Assembly (NCBI GenBank): GCA_937920515.1
Contig: CALEUG010000010.1
Coordinates: 1 to 64,000, forward strand
Reading direction: 5' to 3'
Source: an uncultured bacterium
GTDB lineage: Bacteria > Acidobacteriota > Aminicenantia > Aminicenantales > Saccharicenantaceae
DNA: 64,000 nt
In this document: positions 585 to 50,136 of the stretch, in pieces
How the letters are laid out: each line of letters begins with the position of its first letter
Numbering within the stretch: the stretch's first letter is position 1
Program-made: the position numbers and the translations under genes
Notes under the pieces: generated by a model
What the model saw: the letters and a program-made list of their open reading frames with translations, nothing else
What the model was told of the DNA's origin: nothing
Database searches by the model: none

Positions 585-1517
585 TTATTTTTTCAAGAAC
601 TCCAGCAATTGCCTGGCCAGGTTTGACTTTTCATGCTGGGGGGCCAGCTCTAAGAATTTTTCCAGGCTGGCTATGGCCTCGGCCTTTTTATTCTGACTGA
701 TATAAATTGACCCGAGCTGAAAATAGGCTTCAGCATAATCCGGCTTTAACTCCACTGCCTTCTGAAAATGTCCCAGGGCTTCCTCGCCCTGGCCCAGATT
801 TACCAGGCAGGCGCCAAGATTATAACGGGCATCGGGGTCATTGGGGCTGATTTCTACCGCTTTCCTGTAATACCCGGCCGCCGCCTCATACTGCTCTTCT
901 CGCGCCAGAAGTTCTCCCAGCTCTTTATTGGCACTGAAGCTGTTGGGATTCAGAGCCACTGCCCGGCCGAAGGCTTCCCTGGCCTCGCAGAACTTATTAA
1001 GTTTCTTGTAGGCCAGGCCCAGGTTGAAATAATAAGCCCAGTTACTGGAGCTGAGACTGATGGCCTCCTGGTAACCGGCCACGGCCTTTTCAAAGTCCTG
1101 CTTGTTGTAATACTCATTGGCTTTCATAAAAGCCCTGTCAGCTCCTGACAGACTCTGAGCTGCTCGTTCGTCGGCCGTTTCCAGCTTGATTATTTCCATG
1201 TTGGTATCACCGTCAATTTCCACGTGGACTTCAAAGGTCCTGGGCAGGTAGCCGTCTTTCTTGATGGTCACCTGATAATAACCGGGATAGATGCCCACCT
1301 GGGCAAATTTACCGTCTTTTCCGGTCCGGGTTTCATACCTTTGAGTGGCCAGCCGGGTTGAGACAATGCTGACCGAAGCCTTTTCGATGGGATTGTCCTG
1401 GGAATCCACCACGGTGCCCCGGATTTTGCCCCGCACCTGGGCCAGACCATTAATAGATAAAAACAGAAACAGTACAGATACTATTAAGGCATTAACTTTA
1501 AGTTTCCTGGTTTTCAT
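585..1517 (-). CDS. Secreted carboxypeptidase-regulatory-like / TPR protein (block A)
   Basis: This 310-residue protein has a Sec signal peptide (about 1-27, ending GLAQ), a carboxypeptidase-regulatory-like beta-sandwich (about 31-110) and at least five TPR repeats (about 125-305). I start it at the ATG at 1517, where AAAGGAG lies 7 bases upstream and the signal peptide begins; a longer frame to 1544 adds nine residues with no better ribosome site. It lies 94 bases downstream of the GWxTD gene on the same strand, probably co-transcribed. The same gene pair recurs at 33473-36582. TPRs suggest a periplasmic or envelope scaffolding role, which is inference. No catalytic motif is visible. Confidence 0.85.
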   Translation of the reverse strand: MKTRKLKVNALIVSVLFLFLSINGLAQVRGKIRGTVVDSQDNPIEKASVSIVSTRLATQRYETRTGKDGKFAQVGIYPGYYQVTIKKDGYLPRTFEVHVEIDGDTNMEIIKLETADERAAQSLSGADRAFMKANEYYNKQDFEKAVAGYQEAISLSSSNWAYYFNLGLAYKKLNKFCEAREAFGRAVALNPNSFSANKELGELLAREEQYEAAAGYYRKAVEISPNDPDARYNLGACLVNLGQGEEALGHFQKAVELKPDYAEAYFQLGSIYISQNKKAEAIASLEKFLELAPQHEKSNLARQLLEFLKK

Positions 1518-1611
1518 CGACCGCTCCTTTAAGTCATAAGTCATCTGTTAATAGCTTCCCGCTTGAAGAATTAAATTAAATCATTATAAACCCACCCTTT
1601 ATTATAGCCCT

Positions 1612-3747
1612 TTATTTCTTCTTTTTTAAATCTTCCAGCCAGGAATTGATGTCCGGCTGGTCAGGCAGCAGGGACAGGGATTTTTCCAGAAATCTCATGG
1701 CCTGCTCGCGATCGCCCAGGTTTTGATAAACTTCGGCCGCTAAGTTAAGAACGCTGACTTCGGTGGCTTCGGTCAGCAGCCTGTCCACATAAGTTCTGGC
1801 TGCCGCCCAGTCCTTGAGTTTAGCATAAGCCAGGGCTATTACCTTGGCCGCATCCCGTTCCTTCGTTGCTTCATGCACAGCCAGGGCTGCCGACAGGGAA
1901 TTTTTATAATCGCCCAGGGCGAATAAGGTCCTGGCCAGGAGCAGCCGGCTTTCAGGCTCATCCCGGCCGGCCAGGATTTCTTCCAGGATTCTCCTGGTCT
2001 CCTGGTAATCCCCCTTCAAAAAATGCTGGCTGGCCAGCATTCTCAGAAAGTCCGGAGAAGGCATCGCCCGGTGCACCCGGGCCAGGACCCAGGGTGCAGT
2101 CAGGGCCGGCCGGGAAAGAACTATAAGGTTTTCCCTTACAGTTTCCACGGTCCGGTTATTATCGAGAAGCGAGACTTCCACCCGGTAATAGCCGGGTTTA
2201 ACCTGGCTCAGGTCCACCGGTTCGGGCAGCAGTCTTTCTTTTAGCGGCCAGGTCCGGCAGTCGGGACTGGCCTCAGAATCCAGGCTTTTAAGACAGAACC
2301 GGACCATAGTTTCCGCGGACAGGCCTTCTCGGTTCAGGAGCCGGCAGTAAACCTGGAGTTTTTCAGCCGGAGAAAATTCGTTGCGGGCGCTGACCAGAAA
2401 TTCCTGCCCATCAAAGGAGAAAGCTTTAGCCCTGCCTTCCGGCAGCGGGGAGGCCGAGTGGTAGAGGACCAGCGGGCTCAGGTAGCGGCTCGATTCTGGC
2501 CCGGGAACCTTCAGGCTGGTTTCCCAGGAAGTAAAATCCCGGGAAGTCTTATTCTTGAGAAGAATCAGCAGCTTGTATTCTCCGGGCAAAACGGGAAACA
2601 GGTCCTGGAAGGCCAGCCTCTGGCGGGAGCGGGTAAGGAATTGCTCTCTGTTCAGCCTGAGCGGCACCTCTTCCGTCCGGTTGAGAAGTGGTTGACCCTT
2701 CAGGTCTTCCAGCCTGACGATAAGCTCGTAAGTAGCCGAATAAACTCCGTTGACCTCGGCGAAATTAATCTTATCAGGCTCGACGGACCAGTGCACGAAG
2801 TAATGCTGGCCCTCGGGAAACACCCTGGCCAGTGCGTTAGAGCTTATAAAATTATGCGAGTAATCAACTTCTACCAGGTCTTTGTAACTCAGGTAATTTT
2901 TCACGTAAGCGGATGGGAATTTTTTCTCTGGAAGCGATTTGATGGTGGCAATTATGGTCTGGGAGGTAAGCGAGCTGAGGCCGTCCTGCTGTTCTTCCGG
3001 TAAATAACTGAGAGCGGCTTTGGCCAGCTCGGCATTGATAGCCTTGATGACCTCCAGGGCCTTGCTTCTGGTCAACCGGGCGGAAGACATGGAAGGAATG
3101 ACCAGTTTTTCCGGCCCTTCTACTCCCGGGTAGTAAAGGCGGTAATCCCCGGAGCCTTCAGGCTGGTAGAAAATAAGATAAAAATAGCCTGGCAGACCAT
3201 ACTTAGGGTCGCCCTGGTAGAACCACAGTTCCATCGGCCAGATATCGGACCGGGTGGCGTAAACCTGGCGCTCCCGGGGCTTACCCAGCAACAGGTAATA
3301 GTAACCGCGCTCGGTCAGGCAGCCTCTTTTCGAAGAACCGATACTGAAATACCTGTCAGCGAAGTGAACCCGTTCCAGATATTCGCGGTAGAATTCATTT
3401 TCGCTGGTGTCAGGGTTGGGGTCCCTGACTTTCCAGAACAGGCTGATAAACCGGTCGCGCTCCTGCTCGGTTTTTAGCTTGAAGAAGACTTCTTTTTCCG
3501 CTTCCGTAATGATCGGAGTTACTATCTCCAGCCAGTCTTTCTGGGCCGGCGTCAATTCCTGAATGATATCTTTTTGCTTCTGACCGTAGGCCAGGTCCAA
3601 CCCGAGCAGGAGAAAACAGGACAGAACCAGGACCGATAACAGGATAGTCCAATTTGCCGTTTTATGGTTGGTCTTAAGCATTTTCGCCGGGTGAAAGATT
3701 CCCTTCTGGATTTTTATATTTCTTAACATTATTGTCTCAATATTCAT
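1612..3747 (-). CDS. GWxTD-domain protein with C-terminal TPRs (block A)
   Basis: This protein of up to 711 residues has a hydrophobic signal or anchor segment (about 34-55), a GWxTD-type domain (about 70-230), beta-rich central domains and a TPR-like region at about 560-705. The conserved tail FWKxRDPNPDTxENEF is clear at about 104-119. The name-giving motif is altered to GCLTE (142-146), while the two paralogues in this window read GWLSD and GWRSD. The start is uncertain: ATG codons at 3747, 3729 and 3681 are in frame and none has a strong ribosome site. GWxTD proteins are common in Acidobacteriota-like genomes and have no proven function. It is divergent from the TonB receptor at 4300. Confidence 0.8.
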   Translation of the reverse strand: MNIETIMLRNIKIQKGIFHPAKMLKTNHKTANWTILLSVLVLSCFLLLGLDLAYGQKQKDIIQELTPAQKDWLEIVTPIITEAEKEVFFKLKTEQERDRFISLFWKVRDPNPDTSENEFYREYLERVHFADRYFSIGSSKRGCLTERGYYYLLLGKPRERQVYATRSDIWPMELWFYQGDPKYGLPGYFYLIFYQPEGSGDYRLYYPGVEGPEKLVIPSMSSARLTRSKALEVIKAINAELAKAALSYLPEEQQDGLSSLTSQTIIATIKSLPEKKFPSAYVKNYLSYKDLVEVDYSHNFISSNALARVFPEGQHYFVHWSVEPDKINFAEVNGVYSATYELIVRLEDLKGQPLLNRTEEVPLRLNREQFLTRSRQRLAFQDLFPVLPGEYKLLILLKNKTSRDFTSWETSLKVPGPESSRYLSPLVLYHSASPLPEGRAKAFSFDGQEFLVSARNEFSPAEKLQVYCRLLNREGLSAETMVRFCLKSLDSEASPDCRTWPLKERLLPEPVDLSQVKPGYYRVEVSLLDNNRTVETVRENLIVLSRPALTAPWVLARVHRAMPSPDFLRMLASQHFLKGDYQETRRILEEILAGRDEPESRLLLARTLFALGDYKNSLSAALAVHEATKERDAAKVIALAYAKLKDWAAARTYVDRLLTEATEVSVLNLAAEVYQNLGDREQAMRFLEKSLSLLPDQPDINSWLEDLKKKK

Positions 3748-4156: not shown

Positions 4157-4172
4157 TGGCACAAAAATTGCT
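4157..4172 (+). promoter_or_regulatory. Sigma-54 (RpoN) promoter of TonB receptor A
   Basis: TGGCAC-N5-TTGCT matches the -24/-12 consensus TGGCAC-N5-TTGCW, with exactly 10 bases between the invariant GG and GC. Transcription would start near 4183, giving a leader of about 117 nt. The same element precedes the block B receptor. Confidence 0.8.
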
Positions 4173-4299: not shown

Positions 4300-7044
4300 T
4301 TGATTAAGAAAGTTTTTGTTCCATTGATGATCGTTCTGATGCTGACTCCTCTGGCCTTTTCCCAGTCGCGGGAAACCGGAGCCATAACCGGAACGGTGAC
4401 CGACGAAAGCGGTGCGCCGCTGCCCGGGGTGACGGTGACCATCTCCGGTCCCGGTCTAATGGGTGCCAGGTCTTCCGTGACCGATGCCAGAGGCGTCTAC
4501 CGGTTCCCGGCCCTGCCACCTGGAACCTACACCATCAAGGCAGAACTCCAGGGTTTCAGCGACGTGGTTAACTCCAACGTGCGCCTGACCACCACCACCA
4601 CTTTAACCATCGACCTGACCATGAAGCAGACCACCCTGGAAGAAGAAGTTACAGTTGTGGCCAAGTCGCCCACGGTTGACGTTAAGTCGACAGAAACCGC
4701 TTCTGTTTCTCTGACCAACGAAATACTGCGCAATATGCCCTACAGCCAGTTCACGGCCGACATCGTCAACATGGCGCCCGGTGTCACCAGAAACGTGGCC
4801 TTTGGTGCTTCCCAGAACACCGGAATCGCCTATACCATGGACGGCGTCAACGTGGCTGACCCTGAAGCCGGTTCAGCCTGGGTCTTTTCTGACCACAACA
4901 TTATTGAAGAAGCCAAGATTATGGGCGTCGGCCTGCCGGCTGAATACGGCAACTTCACCGGAGTTATTTTCAACCTGGTGACCAAGTCGGGCGGAAACAA
5001 TTTTTCAGGCCATATGGAGTTTGATTTCCAGGGCAAGAGGACCGATAAGCCGAAAGGCCTGTGGGGCACGACCAACAATTCAGCCTACATCGGCGATTTC
5101 CCCAACCTGACAACTCCGCTTCTTAAATTGATGGATGCCAACGCTCACCTGGGCGGGCCCATCATCCGCGACAAGCTGTGGTTCTATGTTGGACTCCAGT
5201 ATTACCGGACCTGGCGCTATCCCACCGGCTTCCCCGAGGCCGTGGATTACAAACAACCCAGAAGTTTCTTAAAGCTGTCGTCCCAGGCCACTCCGACTCT
5301 GAGCCTGACCGCTTCAGTCCAGATAGATACCTACAATGGTATCAACCGGGGTGCTGGAGCCACCGTTTCTCCGGAAGCCACGGTTACCCAGAAATCTCCC
5401 GAAGTGGTCGGAAACTTCAGCCTGACCAAGATTTTCAGCTCCAAGACCTTCCTGGATGTCAAGGCCGCCTATTTCTGGGGCTACTACTATCTTGACCCGG
5501 AAGTGGGCATGTCGCCCTATATGCATTTTGATTTCGCCGACAATTACCAGCGCTATAGCTCTGGCTACTTTTACTACGCCGACCGTCAGCGCTTCCAGAC
5601 CAACGCCAGCCTGAGCCACTACGTGGAAGATTTTTATGGCTCTCACGACTTCAAATTCGGGGCGGAATTCGAAAGGTCCATGGTCCGTAACCGTTACGGC
5701 TTCACAGGTGAAGGCGGAGAGCTGGGCGACCATGTACAGTATTACGATTATTATGGCTATCCTTACCTGGCTTACCAGTATACAGGATACGACACCAACA
5801 CCCGCTACACCAGGCTGGAAGCCTTCGCCCAGGACTCCTGGCAGGTGACCAGGAGGCTCAACATCAACGCCGGTCTCAGGTTCAGCCTGTACTGGGGCCA
5901 GGTAAAAGGCGTTTCCGGAAATGTATATACCAATAACAGAATCTCGCCCCGCATAGGTTTCACCTATGACCTGTTCGGCGACAGAACCACCATTCTAAAG
6001 GCCCACTACGGACATTTCGCCGAAGCCATGCTGGCCTCCTACCATGACCGGATGAATCCGCCTTCCGCCTACAGCAACTACAACGGATATTACTATGACT
6101 ATGATTATGGAGAATGGGTGCTCTGGTTCTCAATTCCGCACGACCAGTACCTGATGGACCAGGATATCAAGCACCCCTACATGATCCAGTGGACGGTCAG
6201 TCTGGAGCGGGAACTCTTCAAGGACGCTTCGTTCAGCGTCAGCTACATCAACCGCCGCTGGAAGAATTTAATCGGGCCGATAGACCTGAATGCTGATTAC
6301 ATCCCGCGGACCGTTAACGTTCCCAATTTCGGAACATATACTGTTTACGAAAGAACGGCAGATACGCTGGAGAATCCACAGTACTACATCACCAACCTGG
6401 ACCGGGCTTACGGCGAATATCCCTGGATACTGGAAAAACCCTACCGGAAATATCACGGTATCCAGTTCATGTTCAACAAGCGGTTCTCCAACAGGTGGCA
6501 GCTCTGGGCTTCTTACACCCTGTCCAGGGCCTGGGGTACCACCGATAATGGTTTTGCCGACGACATCGGCTACGGCGGCAACGTCTACGACCCGAACTTC
6601 TGGATAAACAGCGAAGGAAATTCCACCTACGACCCGACCCACATGATCAAAATCCAGGGCACCTACATCATCCCCAAGATCGAGCTGAGTGTTAACGTCT
6701 ACTACCACGGCATCACCGGCAATGCCTGGACCACCCGCTACCGGACTCCCCGTTTCAACCAGGGCCGTATCACCTTCTTCATCGAGCCCAGGGGCTCCCA
6801 TCATTACCCGATGGACCACCAGATTGACCTCAGGCTGGAAAAGATCTTCACCTTCGCCAGCAAGTACCGGCTGGGCCTGATGGTTGACATCTTCAACCTG
6901 CTCAACTCCGACACCATTACTTCCTGGGGCACTCGCTGGATGTACGACTGGAACCCGAACAGCTATCCCTCCACCATGGGTCATCAACTCTACGGAATTG
7001 TCAACGCCAGGCAGGCTCGGGTTGGAATTCGTTTGATCTTCTGA
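4300..7044 (+). CDS. Oar-like TonB-dependent receptor (block A)
   Basis: This 914-residue outer-membrane receptor has a signal peptide (1-21), a carboxypeptidase-regulatory-like domain (about 26-107), a TonB plug domain (about 125-235, with YTMDGVNV and the NLVTKSGGN segment) and a long aromatic-rich beta-barrel ending in Phe (IRLIF). The start is a TTG at 4300, supported by AGGAGG at 4287-4292 and by the signal peptide. There is no SusD-like partner next to it, so the SusC/SusD model does not apply directly. It is predicted to be transcribed from a sigma-54 promoter and ends at a strong terminator. The substrate is unknown. The architecture repeats at 27151 and 58550. Confidence 0.93.
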   Translation: MIKKVFVPLMIVLMLTPLAFSQSRETGAITGTVTDESGAPLPGVTVTISGPGLMGARSSVTDARGVYRFPALPPGTYTIKAELQGFSDVVNSNVRLTTTTTLTIDLTMKQTTLEEEVTVVAKSPTVDVKSTETASVSLTNEILRNMPYSQFTADIVNMAPGVTRNVAFGASQNTGIAYTMDGVNVADPEAGSAWVFSDHNIIEEAKIMGVGLPAEYGNFTGVIFNLVTKSGGNNFSGHMEFDFQGKRTDKPKGLWGTTNNSAYIGDFPNLTTPLLKLMDANAHLGGPIIRDKLWFYVGLQYYRTWRYPTGFPEAVDYKQPRSFLKLSSQATPTLSLTASVQIDTYNGINRGAGATVSPEATVTQKSPEVVGNFSLTKIFSSKTFLDVKAAYFWGYYYLDPEVGMSPYMHFDFADNYQRYSSGYFYYADRQRFQTNASLSHYVEDFYGSHDFKFGAEFERSMVRNRYGFTGEGGELGDHVQYYDYYGYPYLAYQYTGYDTNTRYTRLEAFAQDSWQVTRRLNINAGLRFSLYWGQVKGVSGNVYTNNRISPRIGFTYDLFGDRTTILKAHYGHFAEAMLASYHDRMNPPSAYSNYNGYYYDYDYGEWVLWFSIPHDQYLMDQDIKHPYMIQWTVSLERELFKDASFSVSYINRRWKNLIGPIDLNADYIPRTVNVPNFGTYTVYERTADTLENPQYYITNLDRAYGEYPWILEKPYRKYHGIQFMFNKRFSNRWQLWASYTLSRAWGTTDNGFADDIGYGGNVYDPNFWINSEGNSTYDPTHMIKIQGTYIIPKIELSVNVYYHGITGNAWTTRYRTPRFNQGRITFFIEPRGSHHYPMDHQIDLRLEKIFTFASKYRLGLMVDIFNLLNSDTITSWGTRWMYDWNPNSYPSTMGHQLYGIVNARQARVGIRLIF

Positions 7045-7064
7045 TAATTCAGTGCTCAAGTCGA

Positions 7065-7096: not shown

Positions 7097-7452
7097 ATTG
7101 AAGCATATAACAACAAACCTGGCCTCAAGGCACCGACAGTAATCTCCGGCGAGTCTCCTGACAATCCGGAACAATTTTTCGTTTCGGCCGGTTCCAAAAT
7201 TCAGACTTTAATGATCTATCTTGTTTTAAGTTTTATTTATTGCGGGCATCCATTGCTTTCCAGTCCGGGAAATCATGCCCTTCCTTGGCCATACTCAGCA
7301 AACGGAGCCGTAACGTTTCTGGCCTCAGTCATCTTAACCTGAAGGAACAAAAATCCAAAAAAATCAAAGGCGGAGATTCTGCAGAAATTCCCCCCGGGTC
7401 TTCAGATATTATCTCCAGGCCTGAAATTAATAATATGATATAATCTGTATTG
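7097..7452. other. Intergenic region upstream of sulfatase-fold gene
   Basis: No gene is recognised; the short open frames here are weak. The only signal I can support is the TATAAT element at 7439-7444 immediately before the next gene. Confidence 0.5.
7439..7444 (+). promoter_or_regulatory. Candidate -10 box giving a leaderless mRNA
   Basis: TATAAT, preceded by TGA, lies 8 bases before the ATG at 7453. A start site about 7 bases downstream would fall at or just before the start codon. No Shine-Dalgarno sequence precedes the gene, and I find no good -35 box. Confidence 0.45.
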
Positions 7453-9787: not shown

Positions 9788-10717
9788 TCAAAAATCAAAC
9801 CTGAGTTTCTTTTCTGATTTCTTGTTCTCGGTCTTGTTCTCAACAGTGACCTTAAGGGTAAAAGGACCCTGACCGTTGACCCCGACCTGAAACTCCAGGT
9901 CGTAGGTTTTATCGAACCTATCCTTTAATTCCTGTGGAGTTACCGAAATTTCAACCGTCCGGGTGTCTTCCCGGACCTTGTTGCCCCCGGCATCCTCTAT
10001 TTCCAGGCTCACCTCGAAAACAGTTTCCAGCCTGTCCTGCTGAGACCTGAACCAGATCTGGTTATAGGGCAGTCTGACCACAATCAGAGCTTTCCCCTCC
10101 GCCGTCCTCTCCATCTTCACTTCAAAATCCATGGCCCGGCTGCTCTCAAACATCCGGCCACCGGGCTGGTTCCAGCTAACCTGGACCTGGGTGATTTCAG
10201 CAATCTGCCGGGCGCTGGCCGGGTCCAGCTGGTAATTTCCGTTCCAGAACCGGTCGATAAAATAAATCTGGTAGAAGCCGTAATGCCAGATTTCTACCGG
10301 GAAACCATAAAAACTCTGTCCCCGGGGATAGGTCTCCCGGTGGTCGGGCGGCCCCAAAGTAATCCAGACTCGACCCCGGTCGCTCAGCCAGCCCTGTTTT
10401 CCGCCTTCACCGAATAGCCTGTTGGCCTGCTCAATGCGAAGAAAATATTCTTCTTTGAACTCGTTGACGGCAGTCTCGGGAATCGGGTCCCGGCGCTTCC
10501 AGAATTCTTCCATGAAACTTTTCCGCTCGCCCGGCGGCAACCTGAGGAAAATCTTCCTTTCCTCGGAAGTAATGGTGTACCTGACGACTGACAGAAATTC
10601 CCTTTCTTCGGGGTTGAGTGACTTCTCCAGCCGGCTGCTGCTGCAATGGCTGAAAATTGCCAGGACTGAGATCAGTAAAAGAGAAAGCCACCAGCCTTTT
10701 GTCTTGATTTTATCCAT
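9788..10717 (-). CDS. GWxTD-domain putative lipoprotein (block A)
   Basis: This 309-residue protein has a signal segment (about 9-24) ending in IFSHC, a plausible but atypical lipobox with His at -1. It has the GWxTD domain tail FWKRRDPIPETAVNEF (72-87) and the motif GWLSD (109-113), then a beta-rich C-terminal half. Unlike the two long GWxTD proteins in this window it lacks TPRs. The start at 10717 is supported by AAGGA 5-6 bases upstream and a TATAAT box about 20 bases upstream. It converges on the sulfatase-fold gene with a 37-base gap. Function is unknown; it is probably periplasmic or lipid-anchored. Confidence 0.82.
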   Translation of the reverse strand: MDKIKTKGWWLSLLLISVLAIFSHCSSSRLEKSLNPEEREFLSVVRYTITSEERKIFLRLPPGERKSFMEEFWKRRDPIPETAVNEFKEEYFLRIEQANRLFGEGGKQGWLSDRGRVWITLGPPDHRETYPRGQSFYGFPVEIWHYGFYQIYFIDRFWNGNYQLDPASARQIAEITQVQVSWNQPGGRMFESSRAMDFEVKMERTAEGKALIVVRLPYNQIWFRSQQDRLETVFEVSLEIEDAGGNKVREDTRTVEISVTPQELKDRFDKTYDLEFQVGVNGQGPFTLKVTVENKTENKKSEKKLRFDF

Positions 10718-26982: not shown

Positions 26983-26998
26983 TGGCACGATAATTGCT
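26983..26998 (+). promoter_or_regulatory. Sigma-54 (RpoN) promoter of TonB receptor B
   Basis: TTGGCACG-N4-TTGCT is a near-perfect -24/-12 element, with 10 bases between GG and GC. Transcription would start near 27009, giving a leader of about 142 nt. Inverted repeats TTCAA-N4-TTGAA (26888-26901) and AATTCA-N6-TGAATT (26906-26923) lie 60-100 bases upstream, a plausible place for activator binding. Confidence 0.85.
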
Positions 26999-27084: not shown

Positions 27085-27106
27085 GGGATGGCTGGCAGGC
27101 CATCCC
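27085..27106 (+). other. Leader hairpin of TonB receptor B
   Basis: GGGATGGC and GCCATCCC form a perfect 8-bp stem with a 6-base loop in the untranslated leader, 44 bases before the start codon. No T tract follows, so it is not a terminator. Confidence 0.5.
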
Positions 27107-27150
27107 AGGGTGATGGGACAAGAAATCATTCGAAAGGAGAACTGATTCGA

Positions 27151-30100
27151 ATGAGGAACAAACTTCTTATTTTTGCTTTGCTCGTCTTGCTGGCTGGTGG
27201 CACAGCCCTGGCTCAGATCAACCCCGAAGGCAAGATTACCGGAAAGGTCAGCGATGACCAGGGTAATCCCCTCCCGGGCGTGACGGTTGAAGCCACCAGC
27301 CCCAGACTGGTCGGAAAAGCCGCTACCGTGACCGACGCCACCGGTACTTTCCGGTTGCTGGCTCTTCCTTCCGGAACTTATGAACTGGTATTCACTCTGC
27401 CCGGTTTCAAAACTCTGGTCAGAAAGGATATCATCCTCCAGCTTTCCCAGACGCTGGTCCTGAACGTGACCATGGAACCGGCCGCCATTGAGGAACAGGT
27501 GACCGTTGTCGGACAGAGCCCGCTCATTGACGTAAAGAGCACGGTTAAGGGCGCTGTACTGACCAAGGAAGTTTTCCTGAGCCTGCCCCGTGGCCGCAAT
27601 TTTGAATCGCTGATCACAACGGTGCCCGGCGTTTCCAGCGAGGGCAGAGCCGGCGGTATCTCCATTGACGGTGCTTCCGGCGCCGAGAATATGTGGTATG
27701 TCGACGGCACCAACGTCACTGAAATCCACGTGGGAACCAGGGCCCAGAACGTCGTCCTGGAACTGGTTGACGAGTTGAAGGTCACCGCTTCCGGCTACAA
27801 TGCCGAGTTCGGTGGCTCCATGGGTGGCGTGGTCAACGTCGTCACCCGTTCCGGTGGCAACACCTTCCGCGGTGATGTCATCGGCTTTTACGAGAACAAC
27901 AAGCTCTGGATGCAGGGTAAAGCCAGAGATTACCTGCGGCTTAACCCCTACGACCCGACAACTCTGAATTACGAGTACGTCAACAATGACGACCTTTACT
28001 TTAACGGCGGGAAAGATAGGGACAAGTACTACCGGATGGAAGGTGTCTTCAGCCTCGGCGGCTACATCATCAAGGACAGGCTGTGGTTCTTCGGTTCTTT
28101 TAACCCCATCTATTCCCAGACCAACGCCCTGCGTGATTTCAACCAGAGATCCGGCCCCTTCTACAACTTCATTCAGTGGTATAGATATGATAACGCTTCC
28201 ATCAAGTTAACCGCCGCCCCGATGATCGGCCTCAGGCTGTCCGCCAGCTACGTCAACAACTTCTACCGGTACAAGGGCGCCATCCCCAGCATCGCCGGAA
28301 CCGGTAACCCGGCTACCCCTTACTACCAGGATGGCTATGACTATCCCAATTTCTCGGCCGCTTTCACCGCTGACTATTCCGGCAAGAACAACCTGCTGGT
28401 CTCCTTGAGAGCCGGCTGGCACAGGCAGGACATCGGCAACCAGGGCATCAAGCCCCCGGCTGGACCGACCTACTACTTCAACGTTACCAACACAATATAT
28501 CAGAGCCTCTATCAGGATATGGGCAGGCTCGACCTGGTTAAATATGCCGGCTGGGCCAGTGCTGCCACCTGGCTCAACCTTAAGAAAGAGCTGAGGGAAA
28601 AAGTCAGCAGTAACCTTGATGCCACCTACTACCTTAACCTGGCCGGCGAGCATGCCTGGAAAGCAGGTGTCCAGTTCATCTGGCTGCATGAAAATTACGG
28701 CTACACGCCGGATGCTCCCCGTATTAACCTCTACTGGAACCGATCTTCTACCTTTGGTCGCGGCACCTACGGCTATTACATCATCAGGCACGGCTACAAA
28801 TCTTATCCCTATGGCTGGGCCTGGAACATCCACAGCAATAACTGGGCCCTTTACCTCCAGGATTCCTGGACCATCGCCAACCGGCTTACCATTAATTTCG
28901 GTGTCAGGACAGAGTACGAGTACATCCCGTCCTTCGACCCGACCTATGACATCACCCCCATCAAGTTTGACTTCGCCGACAAGCTGGCTCCGAGACTGGG
29001 CCTGGTTTATGACGTCTTCGGCGATTCCAGCCTGAAGGTGTTCGGCAGCTTCGGCATCTACTACGACGTTATGAAGCTCTACATGGCCGAAGGCGCCTTC
29101 GGCGGTTTCAAGTGGAAAAACAGCTACTTCGCCCTGAACGAGCTCGACTGGACTCTGATCGCCGCTAACTTCATCAATACCGGAAACTTTGAAGACCTGG
29201 CTGACCAGGCTCCGGGCAACAACCAGTACCTGGGCACCATCGACTTTCGTCATCCTTCTTTCGATGCCGTTGACCCCTCCATGAAGCCGGTTTCCCAGAT
29301 GGAAATTTCCTTCGGCGCCGAAAAGAAGATCCTTGAAGACCTGTCCTTCTCGGCCCGGGCTGTTTACAAGCACCTGATCAGAACCATCGAAGACATCGGC
29401 GCCTACGAAGAAACAGCTCCCGGACAGTTTGCCGAAATCTACATGTTTGCCAACCCCGGCTACGGCTGGGCCAGACCTGTGTCCAAAGGTGGAAAAATTT
29501 CTGATGAATACTGGCCAATGCCAAAGGCCAAGAGAGACTATTACGGCCTGAACCTGGCCCTGGAAAAAAGATTCAGCCACAACTGGCAGGGTGGCCTAAA
29601 CTACACCCTGAGCCGTGTCCAGGGTAACTACGGCGGCCTGGCCAGCTCCGACGAAGAAGGCCGCGTGTCGCCCAACGTCAATAGATACTTCGACTACTGG
29701 TTCATGCCCTATAAAGCTGACGGAACAGAGCTGAGCGGACCACTACCTCACGACAGAACCCATTACATCAAGGCTTACGGCTCCTACGTGTTCCCCTTCG
29801 GCCTGACCGTCGGTGTGACTGCCTACGCCAGGAGCGGCTATCCGCTGAGCACCAGGATCAACCTGTGCAACGCCTACATGTGGCCCAACGGCTACGGCGA
29901 CCTGGGCCGCCTGCCCTGGAACGTCTGGGCCGATGTTTACCTTGAGTACACGCTGCGCTTTGCCGGCAAGTACGGAGTGGGCATCAACCTCCAGGTCAAC
30001 AATATCACCAACACCAAGTCCATAACCGGAAAAGTTTATGACCTGAACAGAGTCGGTACCCGTTATTATGTTTATCAGCCCGGGACCAGCACTCTTGTTG

Positions 30101-30291
30101 ATTTTGAAGCTGACATGCTGGCCGGAACCTTCCAGAACTACTGGTACGAATACTTCTCCAACAGAAACCTGGACCTCGACGGCAACCCCAACACCTCCAC
30201 CAACCCGCTCGACCCGCATCCCGCTTTCGGCTGGTGGTCTTCCAGATTCGGCACCTGGTCGATGAGACTGGGCTTCAAGTTCACCTTCTAA
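27151..30291 (+). CDS. Oar-like TonB-dependent receptor (block B)
   Basis: This 1046-residue outer-membrane receptor has a signal peptide (1-22, ending ALAQ), a carboxypeptidase-regulatory-like domain (about 27-107), a plug domain (about 125-235, with MWYVDGTNV and NVVTRSGGN) and a large barrel ending in Phe (LGFKFTF). I start it at the ATG at 27151 with GAAAGGAG upstream, because the frame from 27088 adds residues before the signal peptide. No SusD gene is adjacent. It is predicted to be sigma-54 dependent and ends at a strong terminator. The ligand is unknown. It pairs with the block B genes at 31068-36582. Confidence 0.93.
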   Translation: MRNKLLIFALLVLLAGGTALAQINPEGKITGKVSDDQGNPLPGVTVEATSPRLVGKAATVTDATGTFRLLALPSGTYELVFTLPGFKTLVRKDIILQLSQTLVLNVTMEPAAIEEQVTVVGQSPLIDVKSTVKGAVLTKEVFLSLPRGRNFESLITTVPGVSSEGRAGGISIDGASGAENMWYVDGTNVTEIHVGTRAQNVVLELVDELKVTASGYNAEFGGSMGGVVNVVTRSGGNTFRGDVIGFYENNKLWMQGKARDYLRLNPYDPTTLNYEYVNNDDLYFNGGKDRDKYYRMEGVFSLGGYIIKDRLWFFGSFNPIYSQTNALRDFNQRSGPFYNFIQWYRYDNASIKLTAAPMIGLRLSASYVNNFYRYKGAIPSIAGTGNPATPYYQDGYDYPNFSAAFTADYSGKNNLLVSLRAGWHRQDIGNQGIKPPAGPTYYFNVTNTIYQSLYQDMGRLDLVKYAGWASAATWLNLKKELREKVSSNLDATYYLNLAGEHAWKAGVQFIWLHENYGYTPDAPRINLYWNRSSTFGRGTYGYYIIRHGYKSYPYGWAWNIHSNNWALYLQDSWTIANRLTINFGVRTEYEYIPSFDPTYDITPIKFDFADKLAPRLGLVYDVFGDSSLKVFGSFGIYYDVMKLYMAEGAFGGFKWKNSYFALNELDWTLIAANFINTGNFEDLADQAPGNNQYLGTIDFRHPSFDAVDPSMKPVSQMEISFGAEKKILEDLSFSARAVYKHLIRTIEDIGAYEETAPGQFAEIYMFANPGYGWARPVSKGGKISDEYWPMPKAKRDYYGLNLALEKRFSHNWQGGLNYTLSRVQGNYGGLASSDEEGRVSPNVNRYFDYWFMPYKADGTELSGPLPHDRTHYIKAYGSYVFPFGLTVGVTAYARSGYPLSTRINLCNAYMWPNGYGDLGRLPWNVWADVYLEYTLRFAGKYGVGINLQVNNITNTKSITGKVYDLNRVGTRYYVYQPGTSTLVDFEADMLAGTFQNYWYEYFSNRNLDLDGNPNTSTNPLDPHPAFGWWSSRFGTWSMRLGFKFTF

Positions 30292-30312
30292 GCTGAGTTA
30301 AAGCAGAAGCTC

Positions 30313-31067: not shown

Positions 31068-33326
31068 TCATCTCTGTCCGCCGGTCAGCTTCTTTTCCAG
31101 CCGCTCCAGCTCGCGGCGGGCCAGGCGGATGGTCTCTTCCCGGTCGCCACTTGAATTTTCCAGGTAGCGACGGAAATATTCCACGGCTTCCTCTGTCCGG
31201 CCGGCTTTCTCGTAAGCCACGGCCAGGTTGAAATAACCTGACCTGGTGGGCATGATGGACACCGCCTGCTTTAAGTAAAAAATAGCCTGGTCCTGATCGC
31301 CCAGGTAAGAGTAGGCCAGACCTGTAAATTGATACAGGCTCTGGTCGTCCGGAAATTCTTCGATAAGTTTCCTGTAAATCTCGATAGCTTCGGATAATTT
31401 ACCGACCGAGGCCAGGCTGGCCGCCAGGCTGGCTCTCAGGGTCTTGCTCTCCGGCTCCACCTCCAGCGCCTTCCGGTACAGGCTCCAGGCTTCTTCCTTC
31501 CTCCCGGCTGCATCCAGGATTCCGGCGCTGACGGTGAGGGCATCCACATTGCGGGGGTTAAGCTCCAGAACTCTTTCCATCGTCTTCAGGGCCAGCAGGA
31601 ACTTCCCGCTGACAGCATAGGTATGTCCCAGCCTGACCAGCAGGGTTTCAGAATCCGGCAGCCTTTCCAGACCCCGGGTGAGGACGGCAACGGCCTCATC
31701 CATTTTTTTCTGCCGGGCCAGGGCCAGAGCCAGATTGACATAGCTGGCGGGGGAATCCGGGGTTTCTTTGAGAATTTTTAGATAGGCCTGTTCGGCCAGG
31801 TCATATTTCTCCTGGAATTCATAGGCCTGGGCTTCCTGGATCAATCTCAGCAGATCAATTTTTTCTTTGGGGTCAGGATAGGTAGACTGTCCCCTGGCCG
31901 GGGCCAGGTTTAAGTAACCGAGCGAACGCAGCCTTTCCAGGTCTTCGGGCCGGGCCACTCCGCCTGAGGGGGAAGAGGATGAACCCAGAAGAATGCTCTC
32001 CAGCTTCTGTCTCAGTTCAACAGCCAGTTCCTGGTTGGTGGAGAAAAGATTTTTCCTTTCCCCGGGGTCGGCCCTGAGGTCATAAAGTTCCGGACGGGGC
32101 GATTGTATGAGCTTCCACCGGCCGGAAATAATTCCGACCAATTCCGACCAGCCGAAGTTCTCGCGCGGATAAAAGGTCTCTATGATAACCTCCCGGTCCT
32201 TTTTCTCCTTTTTCAGGAAATAACCCTCCAGGCTGCGACCCTGCAACCGGGTTGCTTCCTCCCCGGCCCCAACCCAGGAGAGGATGGTGGGCGCTATATC
32301 GGTCAGCCGGACCCTGGCCTCAACCACACCTGGCCTGGTAAAGACCTTTCTGCCCCAGAAAATCAAAGGCACCCTGACGGTCTCTTCATAAAGAAATATT
32401 CCGTGGCCAAGTTCCACCCGGGCACCCAGCCCTTCCCCGTGGTCGCCGGCCACGATGATTATGGTTTTACCCAAAAGGCCTTTTTCTTCCAGGGCCCGCA
32501 GGATCTGGCCCACGTAAACATCCATGTAGGCAATTTCGCCGTCGTAAGGACGGTCGCTGAATTCCCGGTTGAAGGGTGCCGGCGGGTCGTAAGGAAGATG
32601 GGGGTCAAAATAATGCACCCAGCAGAAAAATTTATAATGGCTATTGTTATCCAGCCAGCGGGCAAAACGGGAGAAAGTCTCCGCCGCCCGGCGCTCGGCG
32701 TTCATTGTCTTAAAGGGCATATCGGCCTGAAAGGTATCGTCATAAACCTCAAAGCCACGGTCGAGGCCGAAGCGGGAATCAACCGAAAAAGAAGAAACGA
32801 AAGCCGCGGTCTTATAGCCCCTTTCATTTAAGGCTTCAGTCACGGTCCTGACCCCGGCCGGCAGGTAATGTCCATTATTTCTCACCTGGTGGCGGAAGGG
32901 TTCAAGACCTGTTAAAATGGTCGCATGGGAAGGCAGGGTCAGGGGAGCCGGGCAGTAAGCGCTGGCAAATCGGATTCCTTCCCGGGCCAGCCGGTCGATG
33001 TTAGGCGTTCGGGCTCCTCTATAGCCATAGCAACCGAGATGGTCGGCCCGGGTGGTGTCAAGGGTAATAAGAAGAATATTGGCCGCCGCAAGGTTATTTC
33101 TCATGTAACCTGACTTTTTCTGGCCAAGGAAGTACCAGCCCGCCAGAAGAACCAGAACCAGGACTACTATGCTGATAATATATAAGTTGAGCTTTCTACC
33201 GCTAACTTTTAATTCAACTGCCGCTTCGCTTTTCTTTAAGCGAGCAGTTTTTTCTGCCCCGGCAGGCTGCTTGTTTCCGCTTACCTCAGACCTAATTATT
33301 CTTTTTTGCTTCTTTTTTTTTCCCAT
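31068..33326 (-). CDS. Membrane-anchored sulfatase-fold protein with TPRs (block B)
   Basis: This 752-residue paralogue of the block A protein has a Lys-rich cytoplasmic start, one membrane helix (about 47-66), an alkaline-phosphatase-superfamily domain (about 83-400) and TPRs (about 495-745). Motifs are LITLDTTRADHLGCYGYRG (86-104) and AGDHGEGLG. As in block A, the sulfatase nucleophile position is Thr (T130-L-P-S-H), so the protein is not a formylglycine sulfatase. It is the last of three minus-strand genes after the GWxTD and carboxypeptidase-regulatory/TPR genes, with a 146-base gap. The ATG at 33326 has no clear ribosome site. Confidence 0.88.
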   Translation of the reverse strand: MGKKKKQKRIIRSEVSGNKQPAGAEKTARLKKSEAAVELKVSGRKLNLYIISIVVLVLVLLAGWYFLGQKKSGYMRNNLAAANILLITLDTTRADHLGCYGYRGARTPNIDRLAREGIRFASAYCPAPLTLPSHATILTGLEPFRHQVRNNGHYLPAGVRTVTEALNERGYKTAAFVSSFSVDSRFGLDRGFEVYDDTFQADMPFKTMNAERRAAETFSRFARWLDNNSHYKFFCWVHYFDPHLPYDPPAPFNREFSDRPYDGEIAYMDVYVGQILRALEEKGLLGKTIIIVAGDHGEGLGARVELGHGIFLYEETVRVPLIFWGRKVFTRPGVVEARVRLTDIAPTILSWVGAGEEATRLQGRSLEGYFLKKEKKDREVIIETFYPRENFGWSELVGIISGRWKLIQSPRPELYDLRADPGERKNLFSTNQELAVELRQKLESILLGSSSSPSGGVARPEDLERLRSLGYLNLAPARGQSTYPDPKEKIDLLRLIQEAQAYEFQEKYDLAEQAYLKILKETPDSPASYVNLALALARQKKMDEAVAVLTRGLERLPDSETLLVRLGHTYAVSGKFLLALKTMERVLELNPRNVDALTVSAGILDAAGRKEEAWSLYRKALEVEPESKTLRASLAASLASVGKLSEAIEIYRKLIEEFPDDQSLYQFTGLAYSYLGDQDQAIFYLKQAVSIMPTRSGYFNLAVAYEKAGRTEEAVEYFRRYLENSSGDREETIRLARRELERLEKKLTGGQR

Positions 33327-33472: not shown

Positions 33473-34447
33473 TTATTTCTTAATGGCCTGCAGAATCTGC
33501 TGGACCATGGCCACCCGCCGGGAATCCTGGGGTTCCAGCTGCAGGAACTTTTCAAAATATTCGATAGCCGCAGGGATGTCGTTCTTGTTAAGGGCGACAT
33601 AACCGAGTTTCAGATAGGGCTCCGGCCAGTCGGGTTTGATGCCGGAGGCCATCTTGAAATACTTTTCAGCCTCATCCAGCTTCTGGTTGGTGAAGAAGAC
33701 CTCGCCCACGTTGAAGGCCACCACCTCGTCCTGGGGCGCGGTATCGACCGATTGCTTGAAATACCTGGTGGCTTCTTCCAGGTTGTCCTGCTTGAGATAG
33801 AGCAAGCCGATGGCGGCCAGGGCCTTGGCCGTCATGCTGACTCCCATGGCCATATCGGTCCTGGCTTTTTCCATCACCTGGTTGTAATACTCCATGGCCT
33901 TATCCATCTCGCCCTTTTCCCGGTAGCAATCGCCGATGTTGAGCAAAATCTGGTAGGCGGAAGGATTCTTTTCATAAAACTGCTCGAACATGGCCAGGGC
34001 TGTATCAAACTTACCTTCTTTGAAGAACTCATTGCCCTGGTCCAGCAGTTCCAGTGAAGCCTGGTCCTGAAGCATCGGTATGCCGCCGCTGGCCTTCTGC
34101 AGCTTGATCACAATCCTCGGGTTCTTTTCCAGCTGGCTGACAGTGACTTCCTGGCTGGCCGGGGCAAACCCCTCGGCTGAAACCATCAGGCTCCAGCGAC
34201 CGGAGCCCAGGCCGATAAAAGACCACTCGCCTTTCTTGTTGGTCGTGGCTTCCAGTTTAAGGCCTCCGCCGGCATCCTGGACGTAGGTCAGAACCAGCCT
34301 GGCTCCGACCACCGGCTTGTCGTTATTGTCGAGCACCACTCCTCCCAGCCGACCGACTCCACGCCCGGCCTGAGCCAGGGCCAGGGTCGGCGACAGGAAA
34401 AATATTATTAGCAGGATTGACAGAAAACGATAGTTATTCTTTTGCAT
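33473..34447 (-). CDS. Secreted carboxypeptidase-regulatory-like / TPR protein (block B)
   Basis: This 324-residue protein has a signal peptide (1-26, ending ALAQ), a carboxypeptidase-regulatory-like domain (about 34-112) and six or so TPRs (about 130-320). The start is the ATG at 34447: GGAGG lies 5 bases upstream and itself overlaps the earlier in-frame ATG at 34459. It follows the GWxTD gene by 44 bases, as its counterpart does in block A, so the two are probably co-transcribed and may act together in the periplasm. No catalytic residues are visible. Confidence 0.87.
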   Translation of the reverse strand: MQKNNYRFLSILLIIFFLSPTLALAQAGRGVGRLGGVVLDNNDKPVVGARLVLTYVQDAGGGLKLEATTNKKGEWSFIGLGSGRWSLMVSAEGFAPASQEVTVSQLEKNPRIVIKLQKASGGIPMLQDQASLELLDQGNEFFKEGKFDTALAMFEQFYEKNPSAYQILLNIGDCYREKGEMDKAMEYYNQVMEKARTDMAMGVSMTAKALAAIGLLYLKQDNLEEATRYFKQSVDTAPQDEVVAFNVGEVFFTNQKLDEAEKYFKMASGIKPDWPEPYLKLGYVALNKNDIPAAIEYFEKFLQLEPQDSRRVAMVQQILQAIKK

Positions 34448-34491
34448 CAAGACCTCCATAAAATATTATATATCCGATCAGGGTCGATGGA

Positions 34492-36582
34492 TTATTTCTT
34501 TTCTTTTATGGCCTTGACCCGGTCTTTTATTTTGGCCTGGTTCGGTTCGATCTGCAGCGACCTTTCCCAGGCATAGAGGGCCTCGTCCATGTCTCCCAGT
34601 TGATAATAACATTCCCCTATGGCATTGAGCACATTAACATTGGTTCCAAAATGGGCCAGGTACTGCTTGTAATAATCTATGGCCTGTTGATACTGTTTAA
34701 GGGCCTGGAGGGACTCGCCGGCAATTTCCAGAAAATCCTTGTAGCCCCGGTTGAGGAAGGGCAGGGCAACGTTCAGAACTTCCTGGTACTGTTCCTCAAA
34801 ATAGAGCAGGCGACAGAAATCCAGGGCATAGGCTGGTTCGGCCGGGTCTTTTTTGTGGGCAGCTTCCAGATGTCTTCTGGCCCTGGACAGGTCTTTCCTG
34901 TTCCAGTACTGAAGGCCCAGGGCATGCTGCACTACCGCCGAATTATCTCCGTCAACCGGCTGGGTCATGACCCAGGACCGGGGCAGGACCGGCAGGTGGC
35001 TGATGAAGAAGTTCGCCTTTTCTCCGAGCAGAACATTGCCATTTCCATCCTGAAGGTTTACTTTCAGGGTGTAATTGGCCGGAGTCCAGCCTTCCAGAAC
35101 AAACTCCTCATAAAAAACATTTCCGTCATTATATTCGGTTAGCTTCCTGCTGTAGCTTTTAACGATTTCGCCGTTCTCTCGGGCCACTTCATAACTCAGG
35201 CTGCCCCCTGTTCTCAGGTCCTGATTCAAGCCCCAGACCTGGAAGAAGGCATACATCCTGTCGCCCAGGACAAAGTCATTCCGCGGGGTGGGTGAAAATT
35301 GCAGGTCATTAAGCAGGAAGGCCTTGTTCAGGCCGCGATACTGTGAGCTCCGGGCCAGGCGGGTGGACAGGAGAACCGGGCTCATCTGCAACTGGCGCTC
35401 GGGAATGTTGAGGGTGGTCTCAAGCGAGGTGAATTCCTTGGAAATAAAATTCTTGAGCAGGATGCTCAGGCGGTATTTCCCGGGGATCAGGGGAAAGACG
35501 TCCTGGAAACTCATCTGGCGGTCCCTGATGCTGGAGACCTGGTCGCCCCTTAGATTCAGGGGTATGCGCCGGTCAAACTGGTAGACCGGCCGGTTTTCCA
35601 TGTCGGTCACAATGCCGTTAATAACTATCGTCGTCTGATAATTGTTATCATTTCTTTCCAGGGATAGTTTTTTGGGTTCTATCAGATAGTGGACGTAATA
35701 AATTCCAGAGGGCGACTGATAGACACTGACCAGGGCGTCGCTGTCAATGTAGTTGGCCGTGTATTCGACCTCGATGATATCCTGGTAACGGAAAAGCTTT
35801 TCGGCGTAGGTGCTCCTGACCTTGTAGGTCGGGGCGGCCGGAATTTTCTGGTTGATCAGAATATCAGAAGAAATGGAAGGCACCAGGTCGGTCAGCGGCT
35901 CGCCTTCAATCAGACTCAGAGAGATCCTGGCCACGTTGGGTTCTATATCAGCCAGCTTCCTGAAGGCTTCTGCATAGCTGGTCATGTCCCCGCTGTAGTG
36001 AGGCATAAGTTTCATCGGACCGTCTTTAATTGGCGAATAAAGCCTGTATTCACCGGTACCATCTGGCTTGTAGAAAACTACCGAGAAGGCATTGGGCAGC
36101 CCGTATTCGGCCATTCCCTGGTAAAACCAGATAATGGTCGGGTAAAGATCATACAGGTTTTCATATTTTTCGGTGGACTGGGGTTCGCCCAGCATTATGT
36201 AAATTTTTCCCATGTCGGAACGCCAGCCGGGACCGGGGGACTCCTTGCCAAAATGCTTGTTGGCATACTCCAGGCGGCGGTAATGCTCTATCTTGAATTC
36301 GTTCTCGGGAGTGTTGGGGTTGGGGTCTCGCTGCTTCCAGAAGGCCTCAATAAAGATGTCCCGCTGACGGTCATTCTCCAGCCTCAAAAAGACCTCTCTT
36401 TCTTTCTGGGAAATTATGTAGACCACCTCCTCCTCCAGCCACTTCCGGTACTTATCCGGAAGGGCCCGGACGAGTTCCTTCTGGGATTTGGGTTTGGCCT
36501 GCCCGGAAGAGGCAGCCCGGATGGGCAACAGGCCGAGGCTGAATAAGAGCAGAATTATTATTACCGACCATCTTGCTTTCAT
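34492..36582 (-). CDS. GWxTD-domain protein with C-terminal TPRs (block B)
   Basis: This 696-residue protein has a signal peptide (about 1-24), a GWxTD domain with FWKQRDPNPNTPENEF (81-96) and GWRSD (119-123), a central beta-rich part (about 250-520) and TPRs (about 550-690). I use the ATG at 36582 because GGAG lies 6 bases upstream; the GTG just before it is less likely. It is co-linear over its whole length with the block A protein at 1612-3747 but keeps the Trp of the motif. It heads the three-gene minus-strand cluster. Function is unknown. Confidence 0.88.
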   Translation of the reverse strand: MKARWSVIIILLLFSLGLLPIRAASSGQAKPKSQKELVRALPDKYRKWLEEEVVYIISQKEREVFLRLENDRQRDIFIEAFWKQRDPNPNTPENEFKIEHYRRLEYANKHFGKESPGPGWRSDMGKIYIMLGEPQSTEKYENLYDLYPTIIWFYQGMAEYGLPNAFSVVFYKPDGTGEYRLYSPIKDGPMKLMPHYSGDMTSYAEAFRKLADIEPNVARISLSLIEGEPLTDLVPSISSDILINQKIPAAPTYKVRSTYAEKLFRYQDIIEVEYTANYIDSDALVSVYQSPSGIYYVHYLIEPKKLSLERNDNNYQTTIVINGIVTDMENRPVYQFDRRIPLNLRGDQVSSIRDRQMSFQDVFPLIPGKYRLSILLKNFISKEFTSLETTLNIPERQLQMSPVLLSTRLARSSQYRGLNKAFLLNDLQFSPTPRNDFVLGDRMYAFFQVWGLNQDLRTGGSLSYEVARENGEIVKSYSRKLTEYNDGNVFYEEFVLEGWTPANYTLKVNLQDGNGNVLLGEKANFFISHLPVLPRSWVMTQPVDGDNSAVVQHALGLQYWNRKDLSRARRHLEAAHKKDPAEPAYALDFCRLLYFEEQYQEVLNVALPFLNRGYKDFLEIAGESLQALKQYQQAIDYYKQYLAHFGTNVNVLNAIGECYYQLGDMDEALYAWERSLQIEPNQAKIKDRVKAIKEKK

Positions 36583-50134: not shown

Positions 50135-50136
50135 TT

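Follow-up and report, generated by a model that had tools for sequence, protein, structure and literature searches.

A four-gene set, kept together in shuffled order among relatives, that looks like an undescribed envelope transport-and-processing system

Layout of the two blocks

The window, a stretch of 64,000 nucleotides, belongs to a draft genome (91.7% complete) that is kin to Ca. Saccharicenans/Aminicenantes, in the Acidobacteriota. It carries two blocks of genes, A and B, in which four protein families are represented (Table 1): an Oar-type TonB receptor (OMP), a sulfatase-fold/TPR protein (SULt), a CarboxypepD_reg/TPR protein (CBRt), and a GWxTD/TPR protein (GWx), joined in A by a short GWxTD protein (GWs). 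An earlier note had described the same four families in both blocks, with GWx followed by CBRt on the minus strand in each case, a description that Pfam and NCBIfam matches and gene coordinates bear out, the open reading frames lying where they had been placed or a few codons away. Export or anchor signals had also been ascribed to all products, and an N-terminal hydrophobic segment is indeed found in nine of nine (mean Kyte-Doolittle hydropathy of 1.6-2.6 over 19 residues), these putative signals being judged by hydropathy alone. The stretch that separates A from B, presented as housekeeping, is largely so where its genes are identified (LptFG-like, Cpn60-like, PurC, PgeF, LipA, tRNA-Val); of two further genes, the one at 25112-26605 gave no model match in Pfam or NCBIfam, and the one at 23865-24728 none in NCBIfam, the collection applied to it.

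Table 1. Genes and promoter-like sites of modules A and B, in window coordinates
Feature	Coordinates	Strand	Matches and remarks
Module A CBRt	585..1544	-	PF13620 1.4e-15 and TPR models; N-terminal hydrophobic segment; probably exported
Module A GWx	1612..3747	-	TIGR04514 86 bits; GWxTD, middle region and C-terminal TPRs; aligned with B; motif degenerate
Sigma-54 (-24/-12) promoter-like site, 5' of receptor A	4157..4172	+	Exact match
Module A OMP	4300..7044	+	PF25183 9.5e-43, PF13620 4.7e-21; CarboxypepD_reg and beta-barrel
Module A SULt	7450..9750	+	PF00884 7e-50 and TPRs; hydrophobic anchor; Thr at nucleophile position (TLPSH)
Module A GWs	9788..10717	-	TIGR04514 106 bits; resembles N-terminal half of GWx
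Sigma-54 promoter-like site, 5' of receptor B	26983..26998	+	Exact match; orthologous receptors preceded by same site
Module B OMP	27088..30291	+	PF25183 2.4e-29, PF13620 7e-19, PF07715 (Plug) 3.6e-5; alternative in-frame ATG at 27151
Module B SULt	31068..33326	-	PF00884 3e-47 and TPRs; hydrophobic anchor; Thr-type motif
Module B CBRt	33473..34459	-	PF13620 2.1e-12 and TPRs; hydrophobic segment; probably exported
Module B GWx	34492..36585	-	TIGR04514 114 bits; GWxTD (GWRSD), middle region and TPRs

Receptors and sigma-54 control

Both receptors combine an N-terminal CarboxypepD_reg extension with an outer-membrane beta-barrel, and the Plug domain recognized in receptor B has no match at 1e-3 in receptor A. 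The consensus for sigma-54 promoters is TGGCAC-N5-TTGCW, and an exact copy lies 5' of each receptor gene, in agreement with the promoters suggested earlier. Genome-wide, there are 14 exact sites versus none for the reversed control pattern; in the window, a search allowing at most one mismatch yields three sites, a number within chance (reached in 23 of 100 shuffles). At loci of the genome's relatives, an exact site stands ahead of 20 of 63 receptor genes versus 0 of 238 other module genes; this count leaves aside genes with less than 250 bp upstream or frames of at most 200 aa, and takes in sites as far as 150 bp into the gene. The C-type receptor lies inside an operon and has no sigma-54 site of its own, whereas other receptors often have one. 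The genome encodes sigma-54 itself (RpoN), as well as two MotA/ExbB-family genes that are candidates for the Ton system. Enrichment of a TonB group under sigma-54 is reported for Flavobacteriia in the available part of PMC12316311, whose coverage there does not extend to Acidobacteria.

Conservation of the gene set

The four families neighbour one another above expectation both in and outside the class. Among relatives, all four are found within 10 kb for 22 of 25 well-flanked GWx genes, L031, whose CBRt is part of a merged frame, being counted as an exception. Within the class (the genome itself and 24 relatives, with 150 of 201 GWxTD and 150 of 173 sulfatase matches listed), TPR fusion was approximated by an open-frame length of at least 690 aa; among the matches listed, 49 of 101 TPR-sized sulfatases have a GWxTD gene within 15 kb against 7.1 expected (assuming uniform positions and rounded genome sizes), 52 of 101 have no listed GWxTD gene at that distance, and plain, shorter sulfatases are so placed in 1 of 49 cases against 3.2 expected. 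Outside the class (the genome itself and 29 others, with all 128 GWxTD and 150 of 360 sulfatase matches listed), the corresponding numbers among the matches listed are 14 of 73 against 2.8 for TPR-sized sulfatases and 2 of 70 against 3.1 for shorter ones, the length threshold here being 680 aa, moved from 690 after a 686-aa case. Many of the counted rows are orthologues of one another, and contig breaks hide neighbours. The module has so far been seen in Acidobacteriota, other phyla being hardly sampled.

Gene order varies among modules, and gene content is kept. Adjacent SULt and CBRt genes, in that order, overlap by 4 bases in 8 of 11 pairs, and where GWx and CBRt follow each other on one strand with less than 600 bp between them (26 pairs), the gap is 32-97 bp throughout. 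Constant content, shuffled order and 4-base overlaps argue that the products work together. The distance matrices of the families also correlate (r 0.87-0.97 over 36 module instances, among which orthologues dominate, and to which L032 and L034 contribute two instances each with CBRt, SULt and OMP in common). The earlier proposal of joint function came through both of the refuting tests set for it, the families being linked above expectation and their distances in agreement, and is partly supported; its word ‘duplicated’, which suggests a recent copy, is not supported, and GWxTD is not the member that defines the set.

With respect to duplication, the genome harbours, besides A and B, at least one more complete module, the third, and a fourth that is partial. 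All three of its sulfatase-fold genes and all four of its CBR-TPR genes lie within modules, leaving aside a small CBR frame of 188 aa (C4:201898). A and B share 23-33% identity, family by family, and the modules of one genome diverge to 23-38%. Among the matches listed for 14 same-genus genomes, A occurs in 10, B in 13 and C in 8, and in most of these genomes A and B are single orthologues; the number of modules per genome varies, with contig breaks adding to the variation. A recent tandem duplication is ruled out by the low A/B identity, the different gene order and the retention of both blocks in the genus. Judged by their divergence, A and B are old paralogues.

GWxTD proteins

All three GWxTD proteins of the window exceed the TIGR04514 cut-off of 28 bits, the long protein of A doing so despite the letters GCLTE at the motif position, and the GWs family profile matches GWx with an E value of 1.6e-54. 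When the GWx profile was compared with solved structures, the best 60 of 403 matches covered only the TPR end (profile positions of at least 529), and the search is uninformative on the GWxTD domain because of this confinement. A literature search on the GWxTD family (TIGR04514/PF20094) gave no function, and one for Aminicenantes and Saccharicenans together gave nothing. The domain is common to the family and to the window proteins; what sets the latter apart is the recurring set of partners. A role as obligatory core is ruled out by loci L097, L098 and L101 (18-20 kb each), where sulfatase-TPR, CBR-TPR and receptor genes occur without a GWxTD gene. Conversely, 3 of the 9 GWxTD matches of the genome itself (C21, C29, C1:36318) lie outside modules; stand-alone GWxTD genes are under-represented in the 64 named loci because these were collected with a module-type GWx query. 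GWxTD is an optional, not a defining, member of the module, although one or two such proteins are usually included.

The sulfatase-fold enzyme

At the position of the nucleophile, SULt carries a Thr: PLTLPSHTTILTG in A and PLTLPSHATILTG in B. In the resulting T-L-P-x-H motif, the Thr and the facing His are invariant wherever the letter is present (45 aligned frames, fragments included). S1 formylglycine sulfatases employ the catalytic motif (C/S)-x-P-x-R, according to the accessible text of PMC5066984, and SULt proteins are not formylglycine sulfatases because their nucleophile is always Thr where readable. No anaerobic sulfatase maturase (anSME) passes its model's cut-off in the genome itself, which is among 12 without one, as opposed to 13 of 25 with one, in a search that covered the anaerobic kind of maturase.

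Over the sulfatase domain, the closest solved sequences are those of S1 sulfatases and phosphonate monoester hydrolases, with which SULt shares the fold family, the first metal Asp, and the DHG and PH motifs. It differs from them by Thr in place of Cys/Ser and His in place of Arg in the active site, by an invariant Asp ahead of PH, a position occupied by Arg or Lys in the three aligned structures, by HG where those structures have Lys, and by its TPR tail and N-terminal anchor. A second point of comparison is provided by ENPP-type (type I) phosphodiesterases, which also employ a Thr nucleophile and whose model, PF01663, matches SULt (4.4e-15 in A, 3e-14 in B); the match to PF00884 is far stronger, and SULt differs in scoring closer to sulfatases and in its TPR fusion. 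Six residues that are invariant in 20 sequences (D12, D163, D217, H165, H218 and H230 of alignment A4) form a candidate metal-site set, as read from the alignment; three Asp and three His likewise make up the site of ENPPs in the available part of PMC11677397, and a two-metal site in SULt is a candidate only. Motifs and domain matches identify SULt as an alkaline-phosphatase-superfamily enzyme that has Thr as its nucleophile, an anchor at the N terminus and TPRs at the other end.

Proposed function and alternative readings

Each block could be a copy of a conserved, sigma-54-controlled module for TonB-dependent transport, its TPR proteins serving as a periplasmic scaffold and its Thr-type enzyme as a phosphoesterase or phosphotransferase. 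We favour this reading tentatively, at a little under even chances, and infer the complex, the substrate and the direction. OMP, powered by Ton, would move a specific large or charged substrate over the outer membrane. GWx/GWs and CBRt would lie beneath it (or on it, if lipid-anchored), their TPRs tying it to the membrane-anchored enzyme, and SULt would cleave or transfer a phosphate (less likely sulfate) ester of the substrate through direct attack by Thr. Modules A, B and C would handle different substrates.

Uptake of glycan- or peptide-derived nutrients would be the favoured direction because several copies adjoin glycosidase, amidohydrolase, symporter or peptidase genes. In a comparison of chosen genes, scanned without a control sample, the C-module adjoins GH116 and GH2; L097 has GH42, MFS, amidohydrolase and GH116 neighbours; L093, L098, L100 and L101 lie near SSF symporter, beta-lactamase-fold, epimerase-like, amidohydrolase or M28 genes; and an arabinan-type locus of the window includes a solitary receptor of the OMP type. 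No clear catabolic neighbour was seen at L089-L092. Against uptake, Pfam and NCBIfam searches of the window revealed no catabolic or carbohydrate-active neighbours of A and B, most genes there being housekeeping, and the retention of A and B in the genus fits a core envelope role equally. The lack of a Plug match at 1e-3 in receptor A, and the 52 of 101 TPR-sized sulfatases with no GWxTD gene listed within 15 kb, also count against the transport-module reading. SusCD polysaccharide-utilisation loci similarly encode a CBR-domain TonB receptor with dedicated partners, and glycosidases adjoin some module copies (C-module, L097); the module differs in that TPR/GWxTD proteins and a Thr-type enzyme accompany its receptor, and in its sigma-54 site. 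No module protein matched the SusD-family model at 1e-3, in searches whose lists are complete for GWxTD proteins and hold the best 25 for SULt and some CBRt.

Transport could also run outward, with the Oar-type receptor secreting or assembling a periplasmic protein or polymer for surface display after the Thr-type enzyme has modified it, for example with a phospho-headgroup. The characterized Oar protein of M. xanthus, which likewise has an N-terminal CarboxypepD_reg extension (PF13620), a beta-barrel and a Plug (by match, shared with receptor B only), is required for secretion of the protease PopC, which speaks against uptake as well; the available part of the same source mentions no sulfatase-TPR, CBR-TPR or GWxTD partner (PMC6434023). 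The N-terminal anchor of SULt and the association of sigma-54 with cell-exterior functions, as described in the accessible portion of PMC3162934, are also consistent with export. Clustering of the non-core neighbours, however, brought out no conserved cargo gene, recurring genes mostly following synteny, and the catabolic neighbours of several copies point the other way, so that export appears unlikely. Apart from synteny, a 350-aa protein and GH116 recur among these neighbours.

Less probable still is envelope maintenance, where the module would perform housekeeping remodelling of lipid A, lipoproteins or periplasmic glycan and the receptor would retrieve the products. Such a role would suit the frequency of A, B and C in the genus among the matches listed, the LptFG-family gene near A and the weak score of the B SULt with the LapC/YejM model (5.7e-8; 31.5 bits, where the cut-off is 825), but several modules per genome at such divergence are unlike a single housekeeping device, and their number differs between genomes, contig breaks and unlisted matches contributing. 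That abundant families merely cluster with other envelope genes or under common regulation, with no joint function, is the most doubtful alternative, since shorter, plain sulfatases in those genomes do not cluster in this way, content is kept through reshuffling, and genes overlap by 4 bases, even though these genomes encode many TPR, CBR and receptor proteins and a third of the GWxTD matches of the genome itself lie outside modules.

Significance

Acidobacteriota genomes repeatedly encode GWxTD proteins and Thr-type ‘sulfatases’ whose function is unassigned or probably misassigned, and a single receptor-centred, sigma-54-linked module makes of two unknown families one testable system. Many sulfatase-model genes of Acidobacteriota cannot be formylglycine sulfatases, which bears on the polysaccharide-degradation potential read from genomes. 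In a bolder and rather unlikely extension of the transport module, receptor, GWxTD/CBR-TPR scaffold and membrane-anchored Thr-type phospho-enzyme would form one complex, a new class of envelope-spanning, TonB-energized machine that processes its cargo during passage through the periplasm, modules A, B and C being interchangeable units for different cargoes. If true, the GWxTD family would thereby gain its first function.

Composition and copies of the module

The earlier note described two blocks, A and B, each carrying a TonB receptor (OMP), a sulfatase-fold/TPR protein (SULt), a GWxTD/TPR protein (GWx) and a CarboxypepD_reg/TPR protein (CBRt), and the open-frame listing, together with domain searches, confirms all four families at the places claimed in both. 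Block A has an additional member, the short GWxTD protein GWs, which matches the N-terminal half of GWx. Module proteins carry N-terminal hydrophobic segments. In A, the pair GWx-CBRt points away from OMP-SULt; in B, the layout is GWx-CBRt-SULt with a convergent OMP, and identity between the two copies is 30% for GWx, 23% for CBRt, 33% for SULt and 26% for OMP. In the long protein of A type, GCLTE replaces the GWxTD motif (9 sequences in all), hinting at a possibly changed role. A sigma-70 family factor gene adjoins B, with homologues in 19 of the loci read, and the sole tRNA found in the window, tRNA-Val (CAC), directly precedes receptor B.

The studied draft genome comprises 2.56 Mb, of which the window is the opening 64 kb of contig C10. 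Candidatus Saccharicenans and other Aminicenantes (Acidobacteriota) count as its nearest named relatives in the GWx search. A PF00884 search of this genome finds three sulfatase-fold genes, those of A and B and one on contig C1, around which lies a third complete module, C (SULt-CBRt-OMP-GWx, single strand); a fourth, partial module on C12 comprises OMP, CBRt and GWs. Four CBR-domain genes have frames in the range 319-374 aa, and each is the CBRt gene of one of these modules; C4 has a further, smaller CBR frame of 188 aa. Among nine GWxTD matches, those on C21, C29 and at C1:36318 stand apart from the modules, and one on C4 is accompanied by a receptor alone. The genome has nine Oar-type receptor genes, and beside four of them no member of the other families occurs as far as the flanks were read.

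Locations of individual features
Feature	Location	Remark
GWxTD protein with GCLTE	window 1612-3747	A-type, long
GWs	window 9788-10717	additional member of A
tRNA-Val (CAC)	window 26779-26853	
Sigma-70 family factor	window 36765-38447	
Arabinan-type locus	window 48039-63819	
Receptor without other families	window 58550-61564	
Receptor without other families	C20	
Receptors without other families (two)	C16	
350-aa protein	L020 13530-14582	window equivalent would fall left of contig end
Three Thr-type sulfatase genes	L096 5120-12185	

Conservation and linkage in relatives

A, B and their counterparts form a real, conserved gene module. Among the 64 named loci from the GWx query, both flanks reach 8 kb or more for 25 long GWxTD genes; within 10 kb of these lie a receptor (25/25), a sulfatase-TPR gene (23/25) and a CBR-TPR gene (22/25), and all four families occur together at 22 of the 25, as they do at 11 of 37 further long genes with shorter flanks. 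Frame size served as a stand-in for TPR fusion (690 aa in the set of relatives, 680 aa in the phylum set). Among the matches listed for the studied genome and 24 relatives, 49 of 101 sulfatase frames of at least 690 aa lie at most 15 kb from a GWxTD gene, against 7.1 expected (rough Poisson tail 8e-25), and 1 of 49 frames below 690 aa, against 3.2. In a set of 30 genomes across the phylum, with figures that leave out the studied genome and two of its class, the corresponding counts among the matches listed are 14/73 against 2.8 expected (Poisson tail 1.6e-6) for long frames and 2/70 against 3.1 for shorter ones. Among the matches listed for 14 same-genus genomes, A is found in 10, B in 13 and C in 8, and A and B lie on one contig 25-27 kb apart in five and 11 kb apart in one.

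Gene order varies while content is kept: A, B and C are each arranged differently, other lineages display further orders, and where CBRt directly follows SULt, the two overlap by 4 bases in 8 of 11 cases. Over 36 instances of the complete module, pairwise distances in the four families track each other with correlations of 0.87-0.97, a level reached by none of 1000 permutations. These permutations keep shared ancestry, and the set consists largely of orthologues and includes two loci twice, each with the same partners both times. All four family trees show the A clade and the C clade. An exchange of partners shows at locus L041, since its SULt groups with L071/L073 and its CBRt falls inside the B group. 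Locus L055, with all four families, is titled as a Clostridiales bacterium MAG and groups with the C-type clade, and its contig is therefore likely misnamed or misbinned.

Wider membership extends beyond this core. SULt, CBRt and OMP occur together at L097, L098 and L101, with no GWxTD gene within the stretch fetched, and in other Acidobacteriota classes (L083, L087, L088, L095) UnbV_ASPIC/FG-GAP proteins adjoin GWxTD genes, some with TPR proteins. A 350-aa protein, with no Pfam match at 1e-3, neighbours A-type modules; it resembles the middle region of GWx (probability 93%, from few, close sequences), and a relative lies between GWs and CBRt in L066.

Sigma-54 sites

Exact matches to the sigma-54 pattern stand at 14 places in the genome, which encodes RpoN, against none for the reversed control; at least four of these sites directly precede a receptor gene, namely those of A, B, C12 and C20. 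Across loci, 20/63 receptor genes have an exact site versus 0/238 other module genes, and 35/63 versus 3/238 a site with at most one mismatch, the reversed control giving no exact site and, with a mismatch, 1/63 and 0/238. The nine C-type receptors (L012, L026, L028, L029, L031, L035, L061, L077, L078) have no such site. For the 350-aa protein, 7 of 8 loci show an exact site 38 bp upstream of the frame.

The sulfatase-fold enzyme

An alignment of 45 sulfatase frames, some of them fragments, shows, gaps aside, only Thr at the nucleophile position and only His at the position facing it. Excerpts of PMC5066984 give the formylglycine signature as (C/S)xPxR and state that conversion of Thr to formylglycine was never shown. 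The best three solved relatives that were aligned comprise one choline-sulfatase and two entries under the name sulfatase family protein. Compared with these, the module enzymes keep DHG, have an invariant Asp (DPH) where the three carry Arg or Lys, and HG where they carry Lys. Their Thr and a candidate set of three Asp and three His correspond to the residues described for two-zinc ENPP enzymes in an excerpt of PMC11677397; the six Asp/His may be metal ligands, and the enzymes would perform phosphoester chemistry. Of 25 genomes, 13 have an anaerobic sulfatase maturase that scores above the model cut-off; the studied genome belongs to the 12 with no match at that level. Locus L096 has three Thr-type sulfatase genes in a row, and nothing in the 19 kb fetched there carries a receptor, CBR-TPR or GWxTD label.

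Uptake or export

Uptake is the favoured role, as suggested by neighbouring genes: module copies adjoin GH116, GH2, GH42, amidohydrolase or MFS genes, SSF symporter genes, as well as beta-lactamase-fold, epimerase-like, M14, M28 or M3 genes (scans of chosen neighbours, without a control sample), and the Oar-type receptor that stands alone at 58550-61564 of the window sits in an arabinan-type locus with two GH127 genes, an arabinofuranosidase-like gene, a sortilin/BNR protein and an FGGY kinase. A and B have no neighbours of that catabolic or transport sort, nor do L089-L092 as far as read. Export must be kept open because OMP is of the Oar kind, and Myxococcus xanthus Oar is required for PopC secretion, according to an excerpt of PMC6434023. 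For the favoured uptake, complex formation, use of TonB, the substrate and the direction of transport are presumptive. The literature searched, outside which most subscription journals lie, yielded no description of the module, and there is a chance that it represents a new kind of envelope machine.
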